From assembly GCF_964355755.1 (NCBI RefSeq), contig NC_092674.1, forward strand, positions 16,063,001 through 16,127,000: a stretch of 64,000 nucleotides of DNA. The letters are read 5' to 3'. The notes under the pieces are model-generated. The model had not been told where the DNA came from. It did not search any database and was given only the letters and a program-made list of their open reading frames with translations. Origin of the DNA: Antedon mediterranea (lineage: Eukaryota > Echinodermata > Crinoidea > Comatulida > Antedonidae). This document shows, in pieces, positions 26,501-63,624 of this stretch (within the stretch, counting starts at the first letter, position 1; each line of letters starts with the position of its first letter). The position numbers and the translations under genes were made by a program.

Positions 26501-29500
26501 ATAAAACATAATACACCACACCCCTATCATAATAATGGTATAGTCCATATAAGTCGAGGTGGCCGAAAACGGCACCTGATCCGTTTATTTTGCTTTCCCA
26601 GGACCTAAAAAGCATTTGTCACATAATTAACCATTACTTTTTTTAGAGACAGAAATTAAAAAAGAAAAATAATGCCAAGCAAGGACTTTTTTTTTTCAAA
26701 TATGTTATTTTATCAAATTAGTGTTACAACTTACTTTAGCGGAGTATGGATTATTATGCATATTTTAGAAATATTTATGAAAATTATTATAAATGTTTAA
26801 TTTATCTTTGACTACCAAATGCAAAAAATTGCTAAATAATTCATAATAAATCTATATCTTTTCATCAGAACTTATTTCTTCTCTTCAAAATAAGACCAAA
26901 CTTGACCATTATGAATGAATGGTTTTGAAACTATTAATAAATTAGTAGACGATATGGGGCCTTCAGTAGGCCTTTCGGGAGCGGCCCCGAGAGCGTCGTC
27001 GCCGCTGTTCATTCAACCTGGAAACATCCTGAAAGCGACTTGGAATTCGCCATTCTCACGCGCGCCAGCGTTTATCGGGTGCTTATTCCGCTGTCTCAGA
27101 TGTGAGCTTGCAGGAAATTAAACGTTCAAGAAACTTATCAAACCAAAACAAGTTTGGTATCAAAATATTTGTCAAAGGTTAGGCTTCAAACTCACATTTG
27201 CGCAAAGTTTGAAACAATATTTCATGCCTATAATGGCATGCATCTGACATGTCAAGGTTCATATTACAACAAAGGTAGACAACATGGCGCGGCCCTCGTG
27301 AGGACATGGCCACGTCTTTTCTCTGGTAGAAAAATCAAATTTTTACATAGAAATATGAGGATTTAGACACTGTAACTGATAAATAATCTTTATTTACAGT
27401 ATTATATATTTATTGTATACAAGCTTCAAAATAGTGATTATTACAATTCATGAATTTAAAGGATTTATTTGTTACTTTTTCTGTGATTCTCTATCGTAAA
27501 AGTACTTATGAGGTGTGATATTCAGGATGAAGTTCCTTAACAAATTTGGAGTAGAAATAAAATACAGGTGCGAAACAGAACTAGCGCCAGTGTATATGAT
27601 CAAATCAGTACCTAGTCGTAATAATAATATTCAATAGATTTATTGTCACATAATAAGGTGTTTCTGTTTGTTGTTTGTGTAGTGTTTCTCTTTCTATAGC
27701 AGAGCCTATCCTATTTTAGCCCTGTTTGTACTGTACTGTAGCTATCCTAAAAAAGTAATGTAGGCCTAGGATACAAAAATATAATCAAAACCGTACATCA
27801 TAAATTTACACATTGAGGTTACCTATGTTAATGATACAGTAATTACACGTTTTGTGTAGGCCTACAGTATAGGGCCACTTACTGTACACATACTGTACAG
27901 TACTGTAGGCCTCGTAACAGAGGCCTACAGTACCTAGTAATCCTAACCTAATAATAATATTCAATAGATTTTATTGTCGCATAATAAATATAAAATGATT
28001 TGGTTCTTTATTACATTACAATCATTAAAACATCGATAAAACCATTAATAAAACAGATTTAAAACACAAGAATATCAAAAAGGTTAATTATCAAAATTGT
28101 TGATTTAAAGTAGAATTTATTTGATATTGTTTAAATTATGCCTTATTCTTAATTTTTTTTTTTTCAGAATCTCATTAAAATGTTTGTCAACCGTCTTGAC
28201 TCGGTGGAGAGTGTAATACCTTACGAATATGATAAGTAAGTGGTTTTTTTTTATGCTCATTCTATGTCAACCAGAACTCCTTGCTCGACTGTCAATTTTA
28301 CAAGGTTGAACTTGATTCAAGTTCAAACTTGTAATTCTAATAGTAGGTATCCCAATGAAAGCGTACAGAGGGGTATCACTTTTGAAATATTAAAAAAATT
28401 TGAATAAGTAGTATGACTTTGATGGTAAATAAATCGTGTTCACTCTTAATTAATACTTAAAAAATTTATATTGTTTGAAAGTACTTGTTTTCTATGTATA
28501 AGTGTGTTTACAATTAAAATTAATGAAGTAGTTGCCGAGAAAATGCGATTTTAAAACGGTTCTAAAATCCTGTCGAGCCGATTTCCGCGCGTTGAAAACC
28601 TCATCGGAAAATCCCCATCAGTTTTCAAAATACGATCGCACGATTACCATTGAAGCTAGCGGATTAATTTTTGTTGTATGTTATCAGTAGGTATCCCAAT
28701 GAAAGCGCACAGAGGGGTATCACTTTTGAAATATTGACGAAATTCGAAAAAGTAGTATGACTTTGATGTTAAATAAATCGTATTCAGTCTTAATTAATAC
28801 TTACAAAATTTATATTGTTTGAAAGTACTTGTTTTAATCTATGTATAAGTGTGTTTATAATTAAAATTAATGAATTAGTTGCCGAGAAAATGCGATTTTA
28901 AAACGGTTCTAAAATCCCGTCGAGCCGATTTCCGCGCGTTGAAAACCTCATCGGAAAATCCCCATCAGTTTTCAAAACACGATCGCACGATTACCATTGG
29001 AGCTAGCGGATTAATTTTTGTTGTATGTTATCAGGCTTTAAATAAGCTTTAATTTGATACGAAAATCGTCTTCTATAAATAGGTTTTTCGTAACGAAAAG
29101 TCAATTTTTGTGACAAAAATCCAATTTTGATTCACCGTTTATGGAAAAATATTTTGGTATTAAATTATAGCTAAATCTACATTGAAATCGATAAAACATA
29201 GTTTACAAACGTATTGTGCATGGTAATTGAGCGAACTACATTTTAAAATGGTGCATGAGGCGTAAATCCCGTTCAAAATTTTAAAGATCCAACCATTATA
29301 ATCCGGTTAATATTGTAGTGAGTAAAATATTGTACTCTAAAATACGCGCGTGTTTGTTGTGGCGTTTTCCGTTAAATACATTAATGCACCCTATCAGCGA
29401 ATGGTACGTTCCATATTTTGAACACTTTGTTTAGTTTTCCTCGCTCGAGTTCGACCGGCTCGACGCGAGATGTGTGACAGCAGCGATGTCGGAGATTGAC

Positions 29501-32500
29501 ATGTCCTTTTCCGTCGTAGAATATCTGGTTTTACACATTAATTTAACAACTTAAAATTGATGTAATGTGCGGAAGATTTATTATGCAAGTATACAATGCA
29601 AATGCGTTAGGTTAAAATGTACCGAGGAAATTTATTAAGCTAATTTACCAACGTTACATTTGACTCTGTATACGGCGGCCGAAAGTCATTAACTGCGACC
29701 GAAATACTTTAACGGAGCGACTACTGATCGCGAGTAAGCCGTGACTTGGCCTAAACTTTAGCTCCGTATTTGGGTGTTTCCATAAATTAAGGGGCCAGTG
29801 GGTATTTTAGTATTGGTGATAGTTAGTTTGCTGTTTACTCTAAATTGGTAATAGTTATTTAAAAAATGATTTTATCATATGATAGAACAATAATATGGGT
29901 TAATACTATTACATGTTGGAAAAAAAAAATTGCAAAAAAAAACGATTTTTAAAAAAAATATATCGTGGTGTCTAGCTCATTTTATTAAAATATGTGTGAC
30001 ATTTAAATACACTGACATATCAGAGTTTAAAAAATATACTACAGCAATAGTTATTTTGTATTTATTTATCATCACAATAGAGTACAAAGCAACGTTAAAT
30101 ATAAGCTAATTACAATTTCCCACGATTTTTTGTTTTCCACACAACGGTCCGCGACGTCCAGCATCACAACGTAACATTTCGTGTCTCACTTTGTTACGTT
30201 GTTAGTACGATCTTTATTAGTGAACAGACACAAGAAGTACCACTATAATGACGAAAATCGAATTACATTCACTACAACAGATCACTGAAATTTACCTTAC
30301 ACAATGTTCTACAAAATGGCGATTTTATTTAGTCAGTTACAGACGAAAAACTATTTTTTTAGAACATTTCGTGTCTCGTATAATCGTTACGTAGTTATTC
30401 ATAGACCATCGGTGGTGAACGCCGCGAGAGCTATTTCTGAAGTTGAAGGTCACGTGATTCAAGAAGCAGGCGAACTAAAGTCTCGGCGAAAAAATCATCG
30501 CTAGGATCCGCGCTAATTTCGAGTTACAGCGGTAGAGACTTTTCGTGTCCCTCTGTTACGTTGTTTCAACTGTTACGTTGTAAATAACTTCTACGCGCTT
30601 CATTGCATGTAAGTTTTGTGTATTTTTATTTTGTAAGTTTTTAGAATTTAGAAAATAGTGGGTTATAATGAAAAATACAAGAAAATTAAACGCCAAAACT
30701 ATCTTCGTACTCTACGTCAACATCATAGTCAAAAACTGGGTGTCGTATACACAATGAGACACGGTTACGTTGGTAGTTTGTTGATACTATATAGTTGATA
30801 TTTGTTTTAATGTGGTAGGAATGTTGTTTATCTCATAGCAGCTTCATAATGTATACCCAATGAACAGATATGTCTATAATTGATTAATATTTAACAAATT
30901 AATGAGCAAAATTGCAAAACATTTTCCACTAGGCAGGTTACAGCGTAACATCGTAGAAGATACGCCGTGTCTTGTTACGTAGTGTACTAGACCTTATACT
31001 GGTGTAGTATTTTGCAAATAATTAGCAATTAGTTACCATAAAATCTTTAAATTTTACATTATGTGTTTGCTATTTGGTTATTGCTTCTATATGACACAGA
31101 AAAATAAAAAGTTATTTAATTATTGTCACAAGAAATAGGGATAAAAGTCCATAGTTTACAACCACTTTCAGAATAAAAACAAATTCGTCGTTTTTGACTA
31201 TTCTATTTGTTACAGTAGGAAAAAAAAGAATTGTATTTGGTTCATTTCAGTTATAATAAAAAACATATTACACAAAATAATGTGTAATATTAGTACATAA
31301 TTTTGTTTATTTATTTAACGTTGCTATTCGACAAGATAAAATATGAATTAAATGTTTACTATAATATACATTTAAAATACCCTCCACTATAGTGAGCGAG
31401 TCCAAGCAACTTGGTTGTCGCGTATGCGCGCCTATCATATTTGGGCGATTTCACTTGATGTGTAGGGAATATTTAACTTGTTTCAATTACAATCTACGGA
31501 AGATATACTAAGGTTTTATAAATTTAATAATAATTAATAACTTTATTTAAATTGATAAAAACAATTACATATAATATAAACGCAAGGCTGTGGATAACAA
31601 TTTATTATGAACGAAATCAAATCAAAACAACAAAGAACAATAGGTTCTCCTAATAGTAATAGGATAGTATTACCACGTGCTTGGGCAATGAACTCTGCTC
31701 CACATTGCGATAAGTTTATTTTTAGCTGGCTCGGCGACTCCGAAGCTGAAAGGGGTGACTGGTATTTCTACAGGTCTGTACGATAATTATTAAGGGTTTT
31801 CCGAAATATCACGTGCTTGGCTAATGAGCTCTCCTCCACATTGAGATCGCGTTTATTTTTTAGCTGACTCGGCGACTCCGGCGGTATTTCTACAGCGAGA
31901 GTGTATATACTCCATGTACGATGATTATTAATAGGGTTTTCCGAAACACCACGTGCTTGGCTAATAAAATTCTCCTCCAAATTGAGATCGCGTTTATTTT
32001 TAGCTGTTCAGTTTGATGGACCTTTATTTTTTAATTTTTATTGAAAACCAACGTGATTGCTGGCTCGGCGACTCCCGGTGCTCAAATTGGGTGACTGGTA
32101 TTATTTCGGTCATGGTTCGGTGAACCTTTATTTTGTTGGCCAAAACCCACACGCTTGCTTCGTCGGCTCCCTACAAAGAGATCGCGCTTAGTTTAATGGG
32201 GAACCTTTATTTACTCTTCGTTTTAAATATATTCCATAGACTTCAACATTATAACTAGTCTACTGTTTTCCCGATGTGGTTTAAAAACAATTATAAAAGA
32301 ATGAGAAATAAAGTCAACAGACATTTTACAACATTTAAAAATAATACGTAAAAAACATTTATACCCAGTATAACTAAGACAAAATTATCAGTAACATATT
32401 AATTTTATTTTAATAATAAAATGATAATAATAAATATTTGATGAATAAAATTAATATTTTAAACTAATAATCTGAAAAGAAAGCAATAGTTTTAGTCAAA

Positions 32501-35500
32501 TCAATTTATGAGCATAACTCAAGAAAGACAAATATATACAGTGTTCATTTATTGTTTTATAATTAATAATAATAAATATTATAATCCATCAACATAAGAT
32601 AAGAAAACACTTTCTTTAGTATAGTAGGCCTAACATATTTTATAATAATAATAGATATATTTATTTTTATTTAAATTGGTATAATTTATATTAAAAATAC
32701 TTAATTAAATACTTTATATTTCTATATGATGATGAATCAAATTTAACCCAGATGGGCAAATCTAATGTTTCATTGTCATTTTTTTCATCTATACAGATCA
32801 GCAGTTTATCAACAATGTTACCGTTCCAATTGAGAACTGCATTTAACCCCAAAAATAGAGATGCCGCATCAACAAAAAGACCAACCAAAGAAACATCAGC
32901 CCACAGACGGTTCTCGAATATACAGTAATTTCAGCGTAAAAAAAAATTACATAACTGAAATTAAACTATTAAACAGGGTTACATCAGGTGGTTAAAATCA
33001 GCACTGAAACTACGAACCAACTTTATATACCATTGAGTAAACATTTTAGAAGTAATGCGCGATTTACCAAATTTTTCCCTCACGTAAATTTATATAGATT
33101 ATACGTTTTAATGATTGAACAAGAGTGTTAATGCGAAGTATATCCAAATGTATTCTCAATGATTTTACTGTAAATGACTATTAATAGTATATTTTAGCAG
33201 TTTGTTGTGTGCAGTAGTAATTACAGTTGTCACACTTTAAAAATAATGTAGTAGTTCTTGTTGACTTATTTAAGTGAACTATTTGGTGTCTCTGTTACAC
33301 GTGAAAACTTCAATTTTTTATTGCATGAATTATATTGTTTTATTGATTAAAAGATAGTATTTGATATACTATTTTTACCAGTTAATCAATTGTATGCAGT
33401 AGTAACCACATTTGTTACACTTTAAAAATGGCTGCATATCAAAACCATTTCATAAAACATTGTGACAAGTTAAAGTGAACATTTGGTGTCTCCGTTACAC
33501 GTGAAATCTTCCATTTATATTTCATGAACCATATTGTTTTATTTCCACATGGAGGTATGATCCTGATTTGACTTGTTGCTAGTAAATGTATATACTTGAG
33601 GTATATTCTGTTCATTTCTGTATTGTTTACATGTAATTTTTAAACAGCAGTGACTTTACAAATCTTTTATATAGAAATTAAGTCAACTTTAACGGCTTTG
33701 CATAATTATTTCATAAGCTATTTTTTAAATTTGAAAAGGTGTGATTTAAATAATATTTTTCTGCATTGAAGATGTTCCCAAAAGCTATTTAAAAATCCAA
33801 TTTAAACAGTTTTAGGTTATTAATAATAACTTATAAGAGGGGTAGATAATGTGATTTTGGTGTCTCCGTTACACGTGAAATTTGCTATGCATGTTGATGC
33901 TATATAATGCTGTTACATAGAGACAACAGATTTAATGTGTATTTTGCTTCTTTTTTTTAGTTCAAGTACATGATATACTATTTAGAATTGATTATTAGAC
34001 TTAGAATGTCACACTTTGAAATTCTGACCCTAATGTCACACCTTGGCCCCTTTATTTATGGAAACACCCATTTCAATTTAATAACGTACTTAATGGTTAG
34101 AAATACGAAATGAAAACATTTTTTATAATGTTACTGTATATATACTATTAGGTATCCAAATGAAGCGGATTTTCGTTATGGCGATTTTAACACGTTCGTG
34201 AAATTTCAAAAAGTGACATGTCTTTGAAGTTAAAAATATACTATTTCTTATGTAGCCATGTGAATAAAATTTATATGTCTAGAAAGATCTTGTTTAAGAT
34301 TTTATTTATATATATTTTTAATCTATGTTTATTTAATATTTTAATAGAAAACGAGAGTTAAAAAGGAGGTACAAAAGCCGGCGAGCCGAAATCCGCGCGC
34401 TAAAAATAACTTCGGAAAACACCTACCCATTTTCAAAACACGATCGCTCGGCGACCATAATAGGTGGTGGAGTAATGTTTGTTGCATGTTATCAGGCTTT
34501 CAATACTCTTTATTTTAATATGTAAATCGGTTATTATTATTATGTACATCCGCCTCAAATGTCAATTTTTCCGATAAAAATTAAATTTTTGCGTCTTTCT
34601 CATTATCAAAATCTGGGGAATTTAGTATTGAATTGAAGCTAATTTATATTTCTGTTTGATAAACTACATTGTTTTATTTGTCTTTGCGTGGTCGTCGTGC
34701 GAAGAGGCCAACAAGACCAACCACTTAAGAAAATAATCCCTATCGAAAATAAAAGTATTTACCATTTTCCTTGCAGGGGGATTCAGTTCTCAGCTTATTA
34801 CTAAAATTACCGTCGCCCAGGCAATTTGCATGGTATGCATGTATTAGCGCGTTAAATTATGATTGGATACCCCCGCAGTGGACTGTTCCATTTTCGGAAC
34901 TAGTCTTTCCTGCACACGAGGCATGGCGAAGAATGTCGCTTCTCATAGAATATTTGCTTCGAAACTTAAATTTTACCGATTTATTAAAGTATTTAATAAG
35001 TGGAGTATTTATCAAGCTACTATATAAAGCAAGTACCTTTGGAATAAATGGACCGAAGGAATTTAAGAAGCTCTAAATTTGCTATGCAGCGGCCGTAACC
35101 CATTCTATGTAGGCGGCCGAAAGGCGCTTTTGACAGGGTTGCCGTTATATGTATACGCTGTATCTTGGCCTAAACGTGATTCCGTATTTCAATTTAAAGT
35201 GCACCTTACGGTTAGAATATTTGAAAAGGAAATAAAATTAAACATATTAATATATACTATTGAAGTAATTACTTAGTTAAATTTTAAATTCGTCTGCTTT
35301 CCTCCCGATATTTCTTCGGCAGAATTTAGTGGTGTTAGGCTTTAGGCCTAGGGGTAGGCCTATATAAACTTAACTTGTAGGAGGCGCGGCCGAGTTTACG
35401 CCCGGAATGGAATCGAATGCATAATAAGCACGGGCTTAATTCTAATTTTTAGCTGTTTGAAAATCAATTAAAATAATATTTATGATTATAATTAAAAATT

Positions 35501-38500
35501 TAAATTCTAGAATTATAAAAAAAATGTATACTTACGAAAAATAATATTTAAAAAAAAGACACAATAGCCACACAGTTTTTTAACACAATATATATTTTAT
35601 TACATTTTAACATTTTTTAACAATATTTATGTTGTATTTCAGAAATACCTACCCGTCAATATAAATAATCTCACTAAAATACACATTACATTCTATGCAA
35701 TGCAAAAAAAAAGAAGTCAATTCATACACTGGTTCAAAAGTTACAAATCATTTAAAGACAGGAACTTTTTGAGCATTTTTTAGACATCTGGAAAAAATTA
35801 GCGCAAAAAGCCCTAAGACCAATTTTGGAGGGCGATATCTCAAAAAAAAATTTTGAGGACCCCCCCAAAAAAAATAGTCTTGTACAACTCTGTGGTATCT
35901 ATGGGTTTAGCAAAAATTAGAACTTTCAAGTTATTAATATAAAAGTTATAACCCTTCAAAAATGGTTCCAAATATAATTGAAAAAAATGCCATTTTTCAA
36001 CCAAAAATCATCGTTTTTTGGCAACTTCAACGGACGATAACTTTTGAATGGATAATCCGATTTCAATCATTTAAATTGCAAAAGTTTATGTTCAGTAAGT
36101 TCCTTTTGATTAACTGAAAGAAAAAGTACCATCATTAATTTGAAATTTTACATTGGGATACCTAATACTATTCAGGTAAACAATTAATTGTTTTAATTAA
36201 CATTGATTATTTTAAATTAGTTTATTTTGACCCATTGTGTGTTTGCCTTAAAAAAGCATCTTAGCCCAGCTTAGATTTGGTGTCATAATCATACGGGCGG
36301 CCCTATAATCTTGTTTTACGTATTCAAAAGTTATAATAGTATTTATGATTAAAATTATAAATATAAAGTATATTAAAATAATAATCTAATAATCATACTT
36401 ACCAAAAATTAGTGTAAAAGAAAGGAATCAGTACACACAGTTTTTAACATACTTTTTCATTTTTTTTTTTCATATACTCATCTAAAATATATTTATTAAT
36501 GAAATATAAACTATATTCTAACAAGTACAAAAAAAATTAAATGAATTAGTACAGTAGATCAAAAGTTACAGATCATTGAAAAATTGCATTTTTTTTTCCA
36601 TTTTTTTAGGGAATTCCAGCAAAAATGGGCGCTAAATGCTTTCCTACCACTTTGCGGACCAATAATTTTAAAAATAGGTTTCATTGAGGCTCCAAAAAAA
36701 ATAGAGTTGTACAACTCTGTGATATCTATAGGTTTAACAAAATTCAAAACTTTTAACTAATTATTGTAAAATTTATAACCTTTTAAAAATGCTTCCAATT
36801 TTAACTGCAAAAACCACCATTTTTAGGCAAAAAATCGTTTATTTTTTACCACTTTAAATAACCATAGCTTTAGAACGGGTAATCGGATTTCAATCATTTA
36901 AATTGCAAAATGCTAATTACAGTAGAACCTCCATTTTACGTACGGTACGGGACCGAAAGGCGTACGTAAAACAAGGGATTCGTAAAATCAAGGTTAACCT
37001 TAAATTGACCCCAAATACGTAGAGATCGTAGCTAGCTAGCCGTACTTGCCTACTTCTGTACTGTGTACAGTATGCGTCACTAGCTTAGCTAGGCCTAGGC
37101 TATTCAGGCTAGGCTAGCAGGCCTAGCAAGATGTGAGGCCTAACTAGAAAAGTACAGTATATACAGGCTGTGCGATGTTTAAATAAAGTGTAAAATATAA
37201 TTGTTTTCTATCAATAAAAACAGTCGCTGCTTTAGGGGGAATGCACGTGCGTAGCTTGTCCCACACACAGCAGAATTCCTCACACAGCCATGATTGTGGC
37301 TTTGTGTGCTTTGTTGTGTTGTTAAATTGCGCCCTCAATGTAAGAAAATGATGACGTCATCGGTTATTTTAAGCGTACGTAAAATCGAGGGAACGTAAAA
37401 TCAGGGTACGTAAAACACAGGTTCTACTGTACATTAAGTTCTTTATGGTTAACTGAAAGAAAAAGTAAAAAAAGTAATCTGAATTTTTTCATTGGGATAC
37501 CTACTAATAGCTATTACCACTTTATAATAATAAATGGGACTTATATAGTGCATTATGCAAAACCTCAATGCCCTTAACAAAAGATATAAAGAGAAAAAAA
37601 AAGAGTTAAAAGGTGAGTTTTCAGAGCAGTCTTAAAATAAGCGATTAAAGTAGGCTGATGGATAGAGATTGGTATTAAGGGCGACAAAGGCCCAAGAAAA
37701 GGAACGAAAACCGTAATGCTAAAGGATTGAATATGCGAGTAGAGACTCTGAACAAGATCGCAAAGATCTCTTAGGAATATACTGTACGGATGAATCAAAC
37801 TCGAAACAAAAACAGGCGAGGAATTATGAAGAGATTTGAAGATAAATAGCAACATTTTAAAAGTTATTCTCTGTGTAACAGGAAGGCAACAAATGTTTCT
37901 AAACACAGGACAGGTGGATATGTTCCCTAACCGGGCAGAGAGTGACTAAACGGGCACAGCTGCATTTTGAACACGCTGCAGTTTTTAAATATCCTTAGGT
38001 GGCATTTTTTTTATCGGTTGGTTTTCACATGGAGTGGATCATATTTGTGGCCCCTGCATATCAGCTCCATGCAAGGGAACTGGAAGGGTTATCCTGAATA
38101 TTAATGAAATGAATATAATGTAAAAACATTTTTGTGTTAAATATTGTTTATTAAAATTTGTATACAAACTTTTCTCCCATCCACAAAACAGTAACCTCAG
38201 TTTTCCTCTTTTAAAAAATTAGATTTGACCTATGTCAGCTATCCACAGAGTTTAGTCCAGTGGAGAATCTTGGTCAGGTTGTGTTTGGAGAACGTATTCA
38301 CTCATCCCCATATAACTTTACTTTCAAGCAAAAGCAGGATTGTTTCAATGTCTGCACCAAAAATTATGACTTAAAGATTGAGGCAGATAAGAAGAAACTG
38401 AACTTTTTGAAAAAAGGCATAATGTTAAATTATCATCAGCATTGGTGAGTGAAGGTTTCCTTGTTTTAATGTTTACTGTTTCATCAGTGCAAAAACAAAT

Positions 38501-54604: not shown

Positions 54605-54765
54605 GTTTATATATATATATAAATCCAAAGGCAAATTACTGAAAATAATGACAATACTGTGGGTATCAGTGGCTGGATCTCAATGGAGATACAATATGAA
54701 ATAAGCAAAAACCTAAATCAAAACGATAAAGTAAAACAGCCAGAAAAAGTAGCAGAGCTTTTTAT
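54605..54765 (+). repeat. PLE-associated terminal repeat fragment
   Basis: ATCCAAAGGCAAATTACTGA, TGTGGGTATCAGTGGCTGGA and AAATCAAAACGATAAAGTAA occur in the same order as at 60023-60138. The segment ends in a TA tract where the 60-kb copy continues to CTTTCGGGCAACACTAGCCC. Confidence 0.8.
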
Positions 54766-59896: not shown

Positions 59897-60138
59897 GTTT
59901 ACTTTATCGTTTTGATTTAGCTTTTCGCTCTTTTTTTGTATCTCCTTTGAGATCCAGCCACTGATACCCACAGCATTATCATTTTGTTCAGTAATTTGCC
60001 TTTGGATTTATATATATATATATAAATCCAAAGGCAAATTACTGAACAAAATGACAATGCTGTGGGTATCAGTGGCTGGATCTCAAAGGAGATACAAAAA
60101 TAAAAAGCGAAAAGCTAAATCAAAACGATAAAGTAAAC
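59897..60138. repeat. Large palindrome of PLE terminal sequence (two arms of about 120 bp)
   Basis: Both arms run from GTTTACTTTATCGTTTTGAT through TGTATCTCCTTTGAGATCCA and CAGTAATTTGCCTTTGGATT to a central (TA)n near 60010-60022. Arms are about 97% alike. The right arm continues into PLE-type sequence and the left arm does not. Confidence 0.93.
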
Positions 60139-62367: not shown

Positions 62368-63624
62368 TTGAATAAGTTAAACGAATCAACACAACATAAT
62401 CCTAAGCCTATTCCAACACGCATTTCGTTACCAATTCGTAGGCCCACCCCATGTACTAATTCGAAAGCAACGAACTTAACTAACATACAATTGACTGCAA
62501 TGTCTGTGTGTAATAAAACAATAACAGTGTTCGATTATATTCTAGAATTTAATGTGGATATACTCCTAATTACGGAGACATGGATTAAAAATGGCGACTC
62601 AGTAACCACCAAGGAATGTACACCTGATGGATATACATTCTTGAATGTCCCGCGCAAATCAGATCAAGATGAAGGTGGATTATTAATTATCTATAAGTCG
62701 TACCTGAAATTTGTAAGTTCACCACTTAAATCCGATTTTACTACATTTGAACATGCGTGCTTAACCGACACATTGAAGACGTATCAGTTAGTCGCAGTAT
62801 ACAGGCCCCCTCCATCGCAAAGGAATGGACTCAAAACCTGCACATTTATCAGAAGATTTTCTGCATGAAGTTTCGTGCCTGTCCGGAAATCCCATCATTA
62901 TTGGAGATATAAATGTTCATGTGGACACTCCAGATAAATGGGATACTTAGATATCTTAACCTGATCCATGACCACAACTTTATCCAACTAGTAGATGGTC
63001 CAACACAGCAATCTGGTCACACTCTAGATCATGTTATCGTGCGAAAGGATGACGGAGCTGTTTTAAATTGTGTAATATCACCTAACACTTATGGATCAGA
63101 TCACAATATGATATCGTTTCGTCTACAAGCAGGTAACCCAGAAAAATCTTAATTAACTGTAACATCGCGTTGCTTTAAATGGGTAAACATAGAGTCGCTT
63201 AAAAAGGACCTCGAAGCAGAACTTTACCCTATACTCACAACTAATGACCCCAGCACACAAGTCAAACTTTATAATAAAGGAATTCGCTGTGTATTAGACA
63301 AGCATTAAAGGATTATTATGGATCAGATCACAATATGATATCGTTTCGTCTACAAGCAGGTAACCCAGAAAAATCTTAATTAACTGTAACATCGCGTTGC
63401 TTTAAATGGGTAAACATAGAGTCGCTTAAAAAGGACCTCGAAGCAGAACTTTACCCTATACTCACAACTAATGACCCCAGCACACAAGTCAAACTTTATA
63501 ATAAAGGAATTCGCTGTGTATTAGACAAGCATTAAAGGATTATCATAAAAAAAGTTTCACAAAACCCATTGTGGTTTACCGACGATGTTAAACGCGCCAG
63601 AATTGACCGTAGGAAAGCTGAGCG
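62368..63624 (+). pseudogene. LINE ORF2 endonuclease region, interrupted
   Basis: The APE-type endonuclease reads in pieces: FNVDILLITETWIKNGDSV and DEGGLLIIYKSYLKFV and LVAVYRPPPSQ (to about 62820). After a frameshift come IIGDINVHVD, FIQLVDGPTQQSGHTLDHVI and YGSDHNMISF (to 63152). The TETW, GD.N and SDH motifs are the expected catalytic ones. The linker carries a 227-bp exact tandem duplication, then PLWFTDDVKRARIDRRKAER before an abrupt end at the Harbinger insertion. Confidence 0.85.
63089..63542 (+). repeat. 227-bp exact tandem duplication
   Basis: 63089-63315 and 63316-63542 appear identical base for base, both starting TTATGGATCAGATCACAATA. The duplication shifts the LINE frame (227 is not a multiple of three). 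Confidence 0.95.

Follow-up and report, generated by a model that had tools for sequence, protein, structure and literature searches.

Nested non-coding DNA transposons with 7-bp target duplications in a TM9SF intron of the crinoid Antedon mediterranea

Known transposons with 7-bp target duplications

Several groups of DNA transposons make 7-bp target duplications, and they serve here as the comparison for a nest of transposons in an intron of a TM9SF (EMP70) membrane-protein gene of the crinoid Antedon mediterranea. The nest lies in a stretch of 64,000 nucleotides (NCBI RefSeq assembly GCF_964355755.1, contig NC_092674.1, positions 16,063,001 to 16,127,000, forward strand), which we call the window and whose first letter is position 1. 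Its outer element, E1, and one of its guests, E2, represent two subfamilies within a single family of non-coding cut-and-paste DNA transposons, about 2.0 kb in length, with terminal inverted repeats (TIRs) of 14-17 bp and TAGGTATCCC-type ends. An earlier note on the window had called 7-bp duplications rare and a possible mark of an undescribed family. The literature does not bear this out as a general rule: in the papers used for comparison (PMC2775673, PMC4168063, PMC4455052, PMC3706591, PMC3276498, PMC2872659, PMC12730594), such duplications are known in 1360, Galileo, hAT7, Kyakuja and, at 6-7 bp, Dada, and three P-type copies in the present genome carry them as well.

Within the hAT superfamily, the hAT7 families of Puccinia and Melampsora are named for their 7-bp duplications (PMC12730594), and a Repbase paper uses hAT families annotated '7-bp TSD' (target-site duplication) as its query example. 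The E1/E2 family is like hAT7 in this length, and the 8-bp target published earlier for the hAT element hobo, NTNNNNAN, is a further point of likeness. The hAT7 families are classed by transposase phylogeny in rust fungi, whereas the E1/E2 family is known from non-coding copies alone.

The P superfamily offers further parallels, all from Drosophila. The element 1360 made a 7-bp duplication at 274 of 279 insertion sites, with GTTNAAC/KTNBWAB as its target (PMC3276498). It shares with the E1/E2 family the duplication length and a palindromic target with T at position 2 and A at position 6; it comes from another host, and its superfamily is known. Galileo, Newton and Kepler mostly make 7-bp duplications at GTANTAC (PMC2775673, PMC4168063), and they also share with the E1/E2 family non-autonomous copies with nested guests and chimeric copies made by recombination. 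Newton TIRs, however, measure 575-610 bp (two copies) against 14-17 bp here, and the outer target bases of Galileo are more constrained.

Kyakuja and Dada differ from the E1/E2 family in their ends. Kyakuja has CA..TG ends without TIRs and the authors of the Dada work found no terminal inverted repeats, whereas the E1/E2 family has clear ones. Dada also targets small-RNA genes, while the targets of the E1/E2 family are dispersed. We rejected membership in Dada on the clear TIRs, on the lack of any Rfam match over 28200-37700, and on 35 tabulated target sites that are AT-rich and different from one another.

The nest and the E1/E2 family

The nest occupies 9,174 of the 9,987 bp of the intron, or 92%, in keeping with its earlier description as almost the whole intron. 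Re-reading confirmed the coordinates, terminal repeats and flanking duplications given before for E1, E2, a 4.3-kb element (G4) and a miniature inverted-repeat transposable element (MITE). It also confirmed that E2, with a duplication of its own, belongs to the family of E1; its left end, TAGGTATCCAAATG, is one mismatch from the family TIR. The depth of the nest had been put at four layers and has to be reduced. Each of the three guests, G4, E2 and the MITE, is inserted in E1 itself and not in another guest, so they lie side by side, which gives a depth of two plus one inferred insertion within the family. Because the guests do not nest in one another, the insertion order, said earlier to be readable directly, can be read only as E1 before each guest and not among the guests. 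The features, all on the + strand, are as follows.

28337-28343, +, left CTAATAG, 7-bp target duplication of E1
28344-37503, +, E1, outer non-autonomous element including its guests, inverted ends TAGGTATCCCAATG
28344-28687, +, putative left 344 bp of an older element, E1a; 95.6% identity to the young left end that follows; variants common to older copies L072, L086 and L057
28681-28687, +, TTATCAG, inferred 7-bp target site of E1b in E1a, second copy lost; fits NTNNNAN
28688-29771, +, E1b, putative young copy of the family, its left 1084 bp; differs from young copies by 2 substitutions in 1082 columns and one private 7-bp deletion
29768-29771, +, ATTT, left target duplication of G4
29772-34069, +, G4, non-coding guest of 4,298 bp with a 26-bp TIR, GGGTGTTTCCATAAATTAAGGGGCCA; near-identical copies elsewhere
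34070-34073, +, ATTT, right target duplication of G4
34074-34141, +, apparently older E1a sequence resumes; holds an 11-bp stretch absent from young copies L054 and L055
34142-34148, +, ATACTAT, left target duplication of E2
34149-36164, +, E2, second-subfamily copy of 2,016 bp, same family as E1
36165-36171, +, ATACTAT, right target duplication of E2
36172-36919, +, E1a, right part as far as the MITE; its last two bases (36918-36919) are the TA duplication
36920-37429, +, MITE, 510 bp, ends CAGTAGAACCTCC.. and ..GGTTCTACTG, TA duplication on both sides
37432-37503, +, right end of E1a
37504-37510, +, right CTAATAG of E1
28168-28235, +, host-gene exon upstream of the nest, 22-letter peptide, splice donor after 28235 read from the sequence
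28236-38222, +, TM9SF/EMP70 intron, donor after 28235 and acceptor before 38223, both read from the sequence; following exon EMP70

The E1/E2 family is dispersed through the genome. The exact 14-mer TIR TAGGTATCCCAATG occurs 373 times in 354 Mb (193 forward, 180 reverse), and the reversed 14-mer, used as a control, occurs on neither strand. In the window alone, the nine matches at up to three mismatches (four exact, one with a single mismatch) are not above chance, as shuffled sequences averaged 5.33 and 10 of 100 reached nine. A genome search with E2 gave at least 41 matches, at least 37 of them full length, the window copy included, and the left 1,080 bp of E1b recur at no fewer than 39 other places with 98-99% identity. 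Nine E2-type copies are 98.8-99.8% identical among themselves. Without its guests E1 measures 2,323 bp, and 1,979 bp once the additional 344 bp at its left end are removed. This is similar to the 2,016 bp of E2, where the earlier note had the two as the same size, and they align at only 64.3% identity over 1,881 columns. Both subfamilies, 64% identical to each other, spread recently.

Both ends were read in 50 copies, E1 and E2 included. The sample was not random; it took in 32 of the 37 E2-type matches of full length and added 18 copies picked from the matches to the E1b left part and to the exact TIR. An exact 7-bp duplication flanks 47 of the 50; in L029 the two 7-mers differ at one base, and L002 and L057 lack a duplication. 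None of 38 copies tested has an exact 8-bp duplication, and all ten further copies scored for duplication length gave 7. The target is a palindromic NTNNNAN in 44 of the 47 (T at position 2 in 45, A at position 6 in 46). Thus the copies keep the 7-bp duplication genome-wide and the TIR marks their boundaries, as the earlier proposal of a family with this duplication length required.

Exact TIR places were listed for 100 of the 373 (C1 to C3:24.8 Mb). By eye, 22 of these are unpaired; each of the 20 retrieved agrees with an E1 or E2 end, in some cases for no more than 70-240 bp, and seven of the 20 have the flank ATATTATTAT in common. The second base after the 14-mer is other than A in 2 of 373 cases; since all four known ends have A here, further classes with A are invisible to this test. 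Allowing one degenerate position in the TIR returned the same two cases against five in the reversed control, which makes it uninformative.

A repeat of about 1.8 kb at L089:2350-4140 (C1:646949-648739), bordered there by a minisatellite, and at L090 (C3:~5371045-5372794) contains an E2-type left part of 1,143 bp together with about 184 bp upstream of it; possibly a different mobile element took up half an E2 copy here. The E1-type copy L057, whose outer flanks are unmatched, has a 2.3-kb insert near its left end with element positions 105-111 on both sides, which would be a 7-bp duplication of the insert. At L091:596-5347, inside an insert in an E1-type copy, perfect 33-bp inverted repeats unrelated to G4 stand about 4.75 kb apart.

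The lengths of the larger guests match those of their relatives: G4 measures 4,298 bp against 4,291-4,305 bp in ten relatives read at both ends, and E2 measures 2,016 bp against 1,972-2,036 bp in L002-L012. Hence no further insert is hidden in either. The ten full G4 copies are 98-100% identical and have no open frame above 79 aa. A 4-bp duplication flanks ten of ten further copies; in one of them it falls in an AT run, so that the match reaches 8. G4 is, judged by these copies, a recent non-autonomous burst without an assigned superfamily. The copy in the nest is 100% (rounded) identical to its best matches, a hint that suggests a recent arrival. The nearest copies of E2 are 95-96% identical in the genome search (97.0-97.6% on ungapped columns), a hint that suggests E2 is older than G4. 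The MITE has its TA duplication in ten of ten further copies.

The host gene is recognized from the exon 3′ of the nest, which matches EMP70 (PF02990, E=1.2e-11) in Pfam and is followed downstream by more EMP70 exons on the same strand; a PDB sequence search with this exon gave no match. The upstream exon is presumably TM9SF-like as well, going by its motif.

The 344-bp repeat at the left end of E1

E1 begins with two left ends in direct repeat with nothing between them, and this arrangement of the 344-bp unit had been read as a left-end tandem duplication. Such a duplication by replication slippage or unequal exchange would leave just this kind of direct repeat. However, the two left halves group with different copies. 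They differ at 21 columns, three of which arise only because one sequence was cut at 344 instead of 347 bp. At the remaining 18, 14 young copies have the second-copy state almost throughout (L058 has one first-copy state). The first-copy state is found in independent older copies, at 10 of 18 columns in L072, 12 of 18 in L086 and 8 of 9 covered in L057, where three columns are end gaps. In addition, the start of the unit coincides exactly with a TIR terminus, and E1 changes lineage a second time on its right. Simple duplication is therefore a very unlikely source of the repeat.

The second switch appears when E1 from its second left end, with the guests removed, is aligned with L054 and L055, which are young and full-length. 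The part left of position 1084 shows 2 substitutions in 1082 columns and the private 7-bp deletion; the part to the right shows 36 in 855 and many indels (Fisher p=2.6e-11). The 11-bp stretch of the right part that L054 and L055 lack is present, with small differences, in L060 and E2. Since the halves group with different copies as well, E1 is older sequence on both outsides with young sequence between. The crossover is bounded on the right by position 1100 (window 34089), which lies within 16 bp of where G4 inserted. The 7-mer that precedes the second TIR terminus, TTATCAG, fits NTNNNAN.

The chimeric structure of E1 fits better with the entry of a young copy from its own family into an older E1, followed by trimming. 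A transposase encoded elsewhere would cut staggered ends at palindromic NTNNNAN targets, giving rise to the 7-bp duplications. Old E1a would have entered the intron at CTAATAG, and young E1b would later have entered E1a 344 bp from its left end, at TTATCAG. The right part of E1b and positions 345 to about 1090 of E1a would then have been lost through homologous recombination, or template switching, between the direct copies. The leftover chimera would resemble a left-end tandem duplication. E2, the TA MITE and G4 would each have entered E1 separately.

A similar outcome, with young sequence in place of part of an older element, would follow if a young copy elsewhere in the genome had served as donor for gene conversion or gap repair. 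Conversion alone adds no extra 344-bp left end at a TIR terminus, and a new junction would still be needed. We regard this explanation of the mosaic as unlikely. Insertion followed by trimming has its own difficulties. The older copy L077 is mixed, with nine first-copy and eight second-copy states, and one column has a third state in 13 of the 14 young copies. The fit of TTATCAG to NTNNNAN is expected by chance about once in nine, and the recombination interval has no sharp left limit.

The source of the transposase

The longest open frame is 58-114 aa in each of 14 copies of the E1/E2 family scanned. Lacking coding capacity, these elements must be moved by a transposase from elsewhere. The hAT superfamily usually makes 8-bp duplications, and its TIRs follow the rule YARNG. 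A short TIR starting with TAGG, together with T and A at the second and last-but-one target positions, gives the E1/E2 family a resemblance to hAT elements. The 7-bp target with T and A at these positions, as taken to define hAT7-like membership, is present in 44 of 47 copies. A hAT-superfamily enzyme is the most likely transposase, with about an even chance of being the right one, and the family itself, which has no assigned superfamily, is recently active, non-autonomous, of a known kind and most likely hAT-like.

Several results count against this assignment. The earlier note had proposed a search for an autonomous relative, and no transposase with the family ends turned up among the part of the candidate places examined. 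The genome has 59 places with hAT domains; in 20 of these, scanned over 1.5 kb on each side and further around five, the TIR is absent at up to 2 mismatches. At 3 mismatches there are five hits in 63.8 kb around hAT places, as many as chance gives (5.33 per 64 kb in shuffles). The TIR begins TAGGT, of which positions 1-4 fit YARNG and the fifth does not. Finally, P elements of the same genome (L061, L062, L068) also make 7-bp duplications.

A number of other leads were followed. A TIR-like 14-mer with 3 mismatches, common to three hAT loci, lies in coding sequence. Long-spaced TIR pairs of 4.3-8.0 kb at C1:8.39 Mb, C2:23.57 Mb and C3:16.2 Mb, considered as autonomous copies, are family copies with inserts. 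Pfam gave nothing above cut-off for four window open reading frames, and the 41 open frames from P and hAT loci gave no match better than E 0.05 to 14 copies, G4 or the MITE. A search of a plasmid collection also found nothing, a result that carries no weight here. A hAT-type gene at L096:1225-4868 has a candidate TIR, CAGGGATGTCACCA, and a candidate 6-bp duplication, CACATC, like those of the published hAT6 group.

A P-type transposase with a 7-bp stagger, as for 1360 and Galileo, might also move the family, a possibility we consider doubtful. Both of those systems combine 7-bp duplications with T at position 2 and A at position 6 of their targets (GTTNAAC/KTNBWAB and GTANTAC), and the family's 7 bp lies in the 7-8 bp expected of the P superfamily. 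The present genome has 35 places with P domains. Among its P-type elements with long open frames and 7-bp duplications are L061 and L062 (5.6 kb, 47-bp TIRs, 99.4% identical copies) and L068 (6.3 kb, 32-bp TIRs). However, these TIRs start CATGGAGG or CTGAGACA, and the three duplications, CGGACAC, GTTTATA and GATACCG, fall outside NTNNNAN. In named P elements, as in L061, L062 and L068, the TIR is at least about 30 bp long and starts with CA or C, a form that the E1/E2 TIR (14-17 bp, beginning TAGG) does not have. Nine P loci were read, and in none does a TIR come within 1 mismatch of TAGGTATCCCAATG; the closest, in L066, has 2 mismatches and is unpaired.

Mutator-like elements (MULEs) make duplications of 8-11 bp, usually 9. 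By eye, none of the 36 MULE places lies within 5 kb of the 100 listed TIR places, the nearest being 6.1 kb away. A further reading is that the transposase belongs to a group apart from the known hAT7 and P lineages, with a 7-bp stagger, NTNNNAN targeting and TAGGTATCC ends. Its autonomous member would be unrecognized, or lost after mobilizing two 64%-identical 2-kb non-coding subfamilies in recent bursts. We think this quite improbable.

Two other repeats lie toward the end of the window. A 227-bp unit stands twice in perfect tandem at 63089-63542, near the window end, and a near-perfect palindrome with 90-nt arms at 59933-60100 is related to 54608-54710.

Taken as a whole, it is probable that one family, moved in trans by a transposase with a 7-bp stagger, produced the E1/E2 part of this nest by nested insertion and recombination. 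The locus illustrates well how transposons colonize a transposon within an intron, and how an apparent tandem duplication can be an insertion of the same family trimmed by recombination. Tabulation of 50 copies yields a firm 7-bp NTNNNAN target for a family without an assigned superfamily. None of this changes how DNA transposons are understood at present. The most intriguing point is that two diverged non-coding lineages were both amplified recently, so an active transposase may persist in A. mediterranea.

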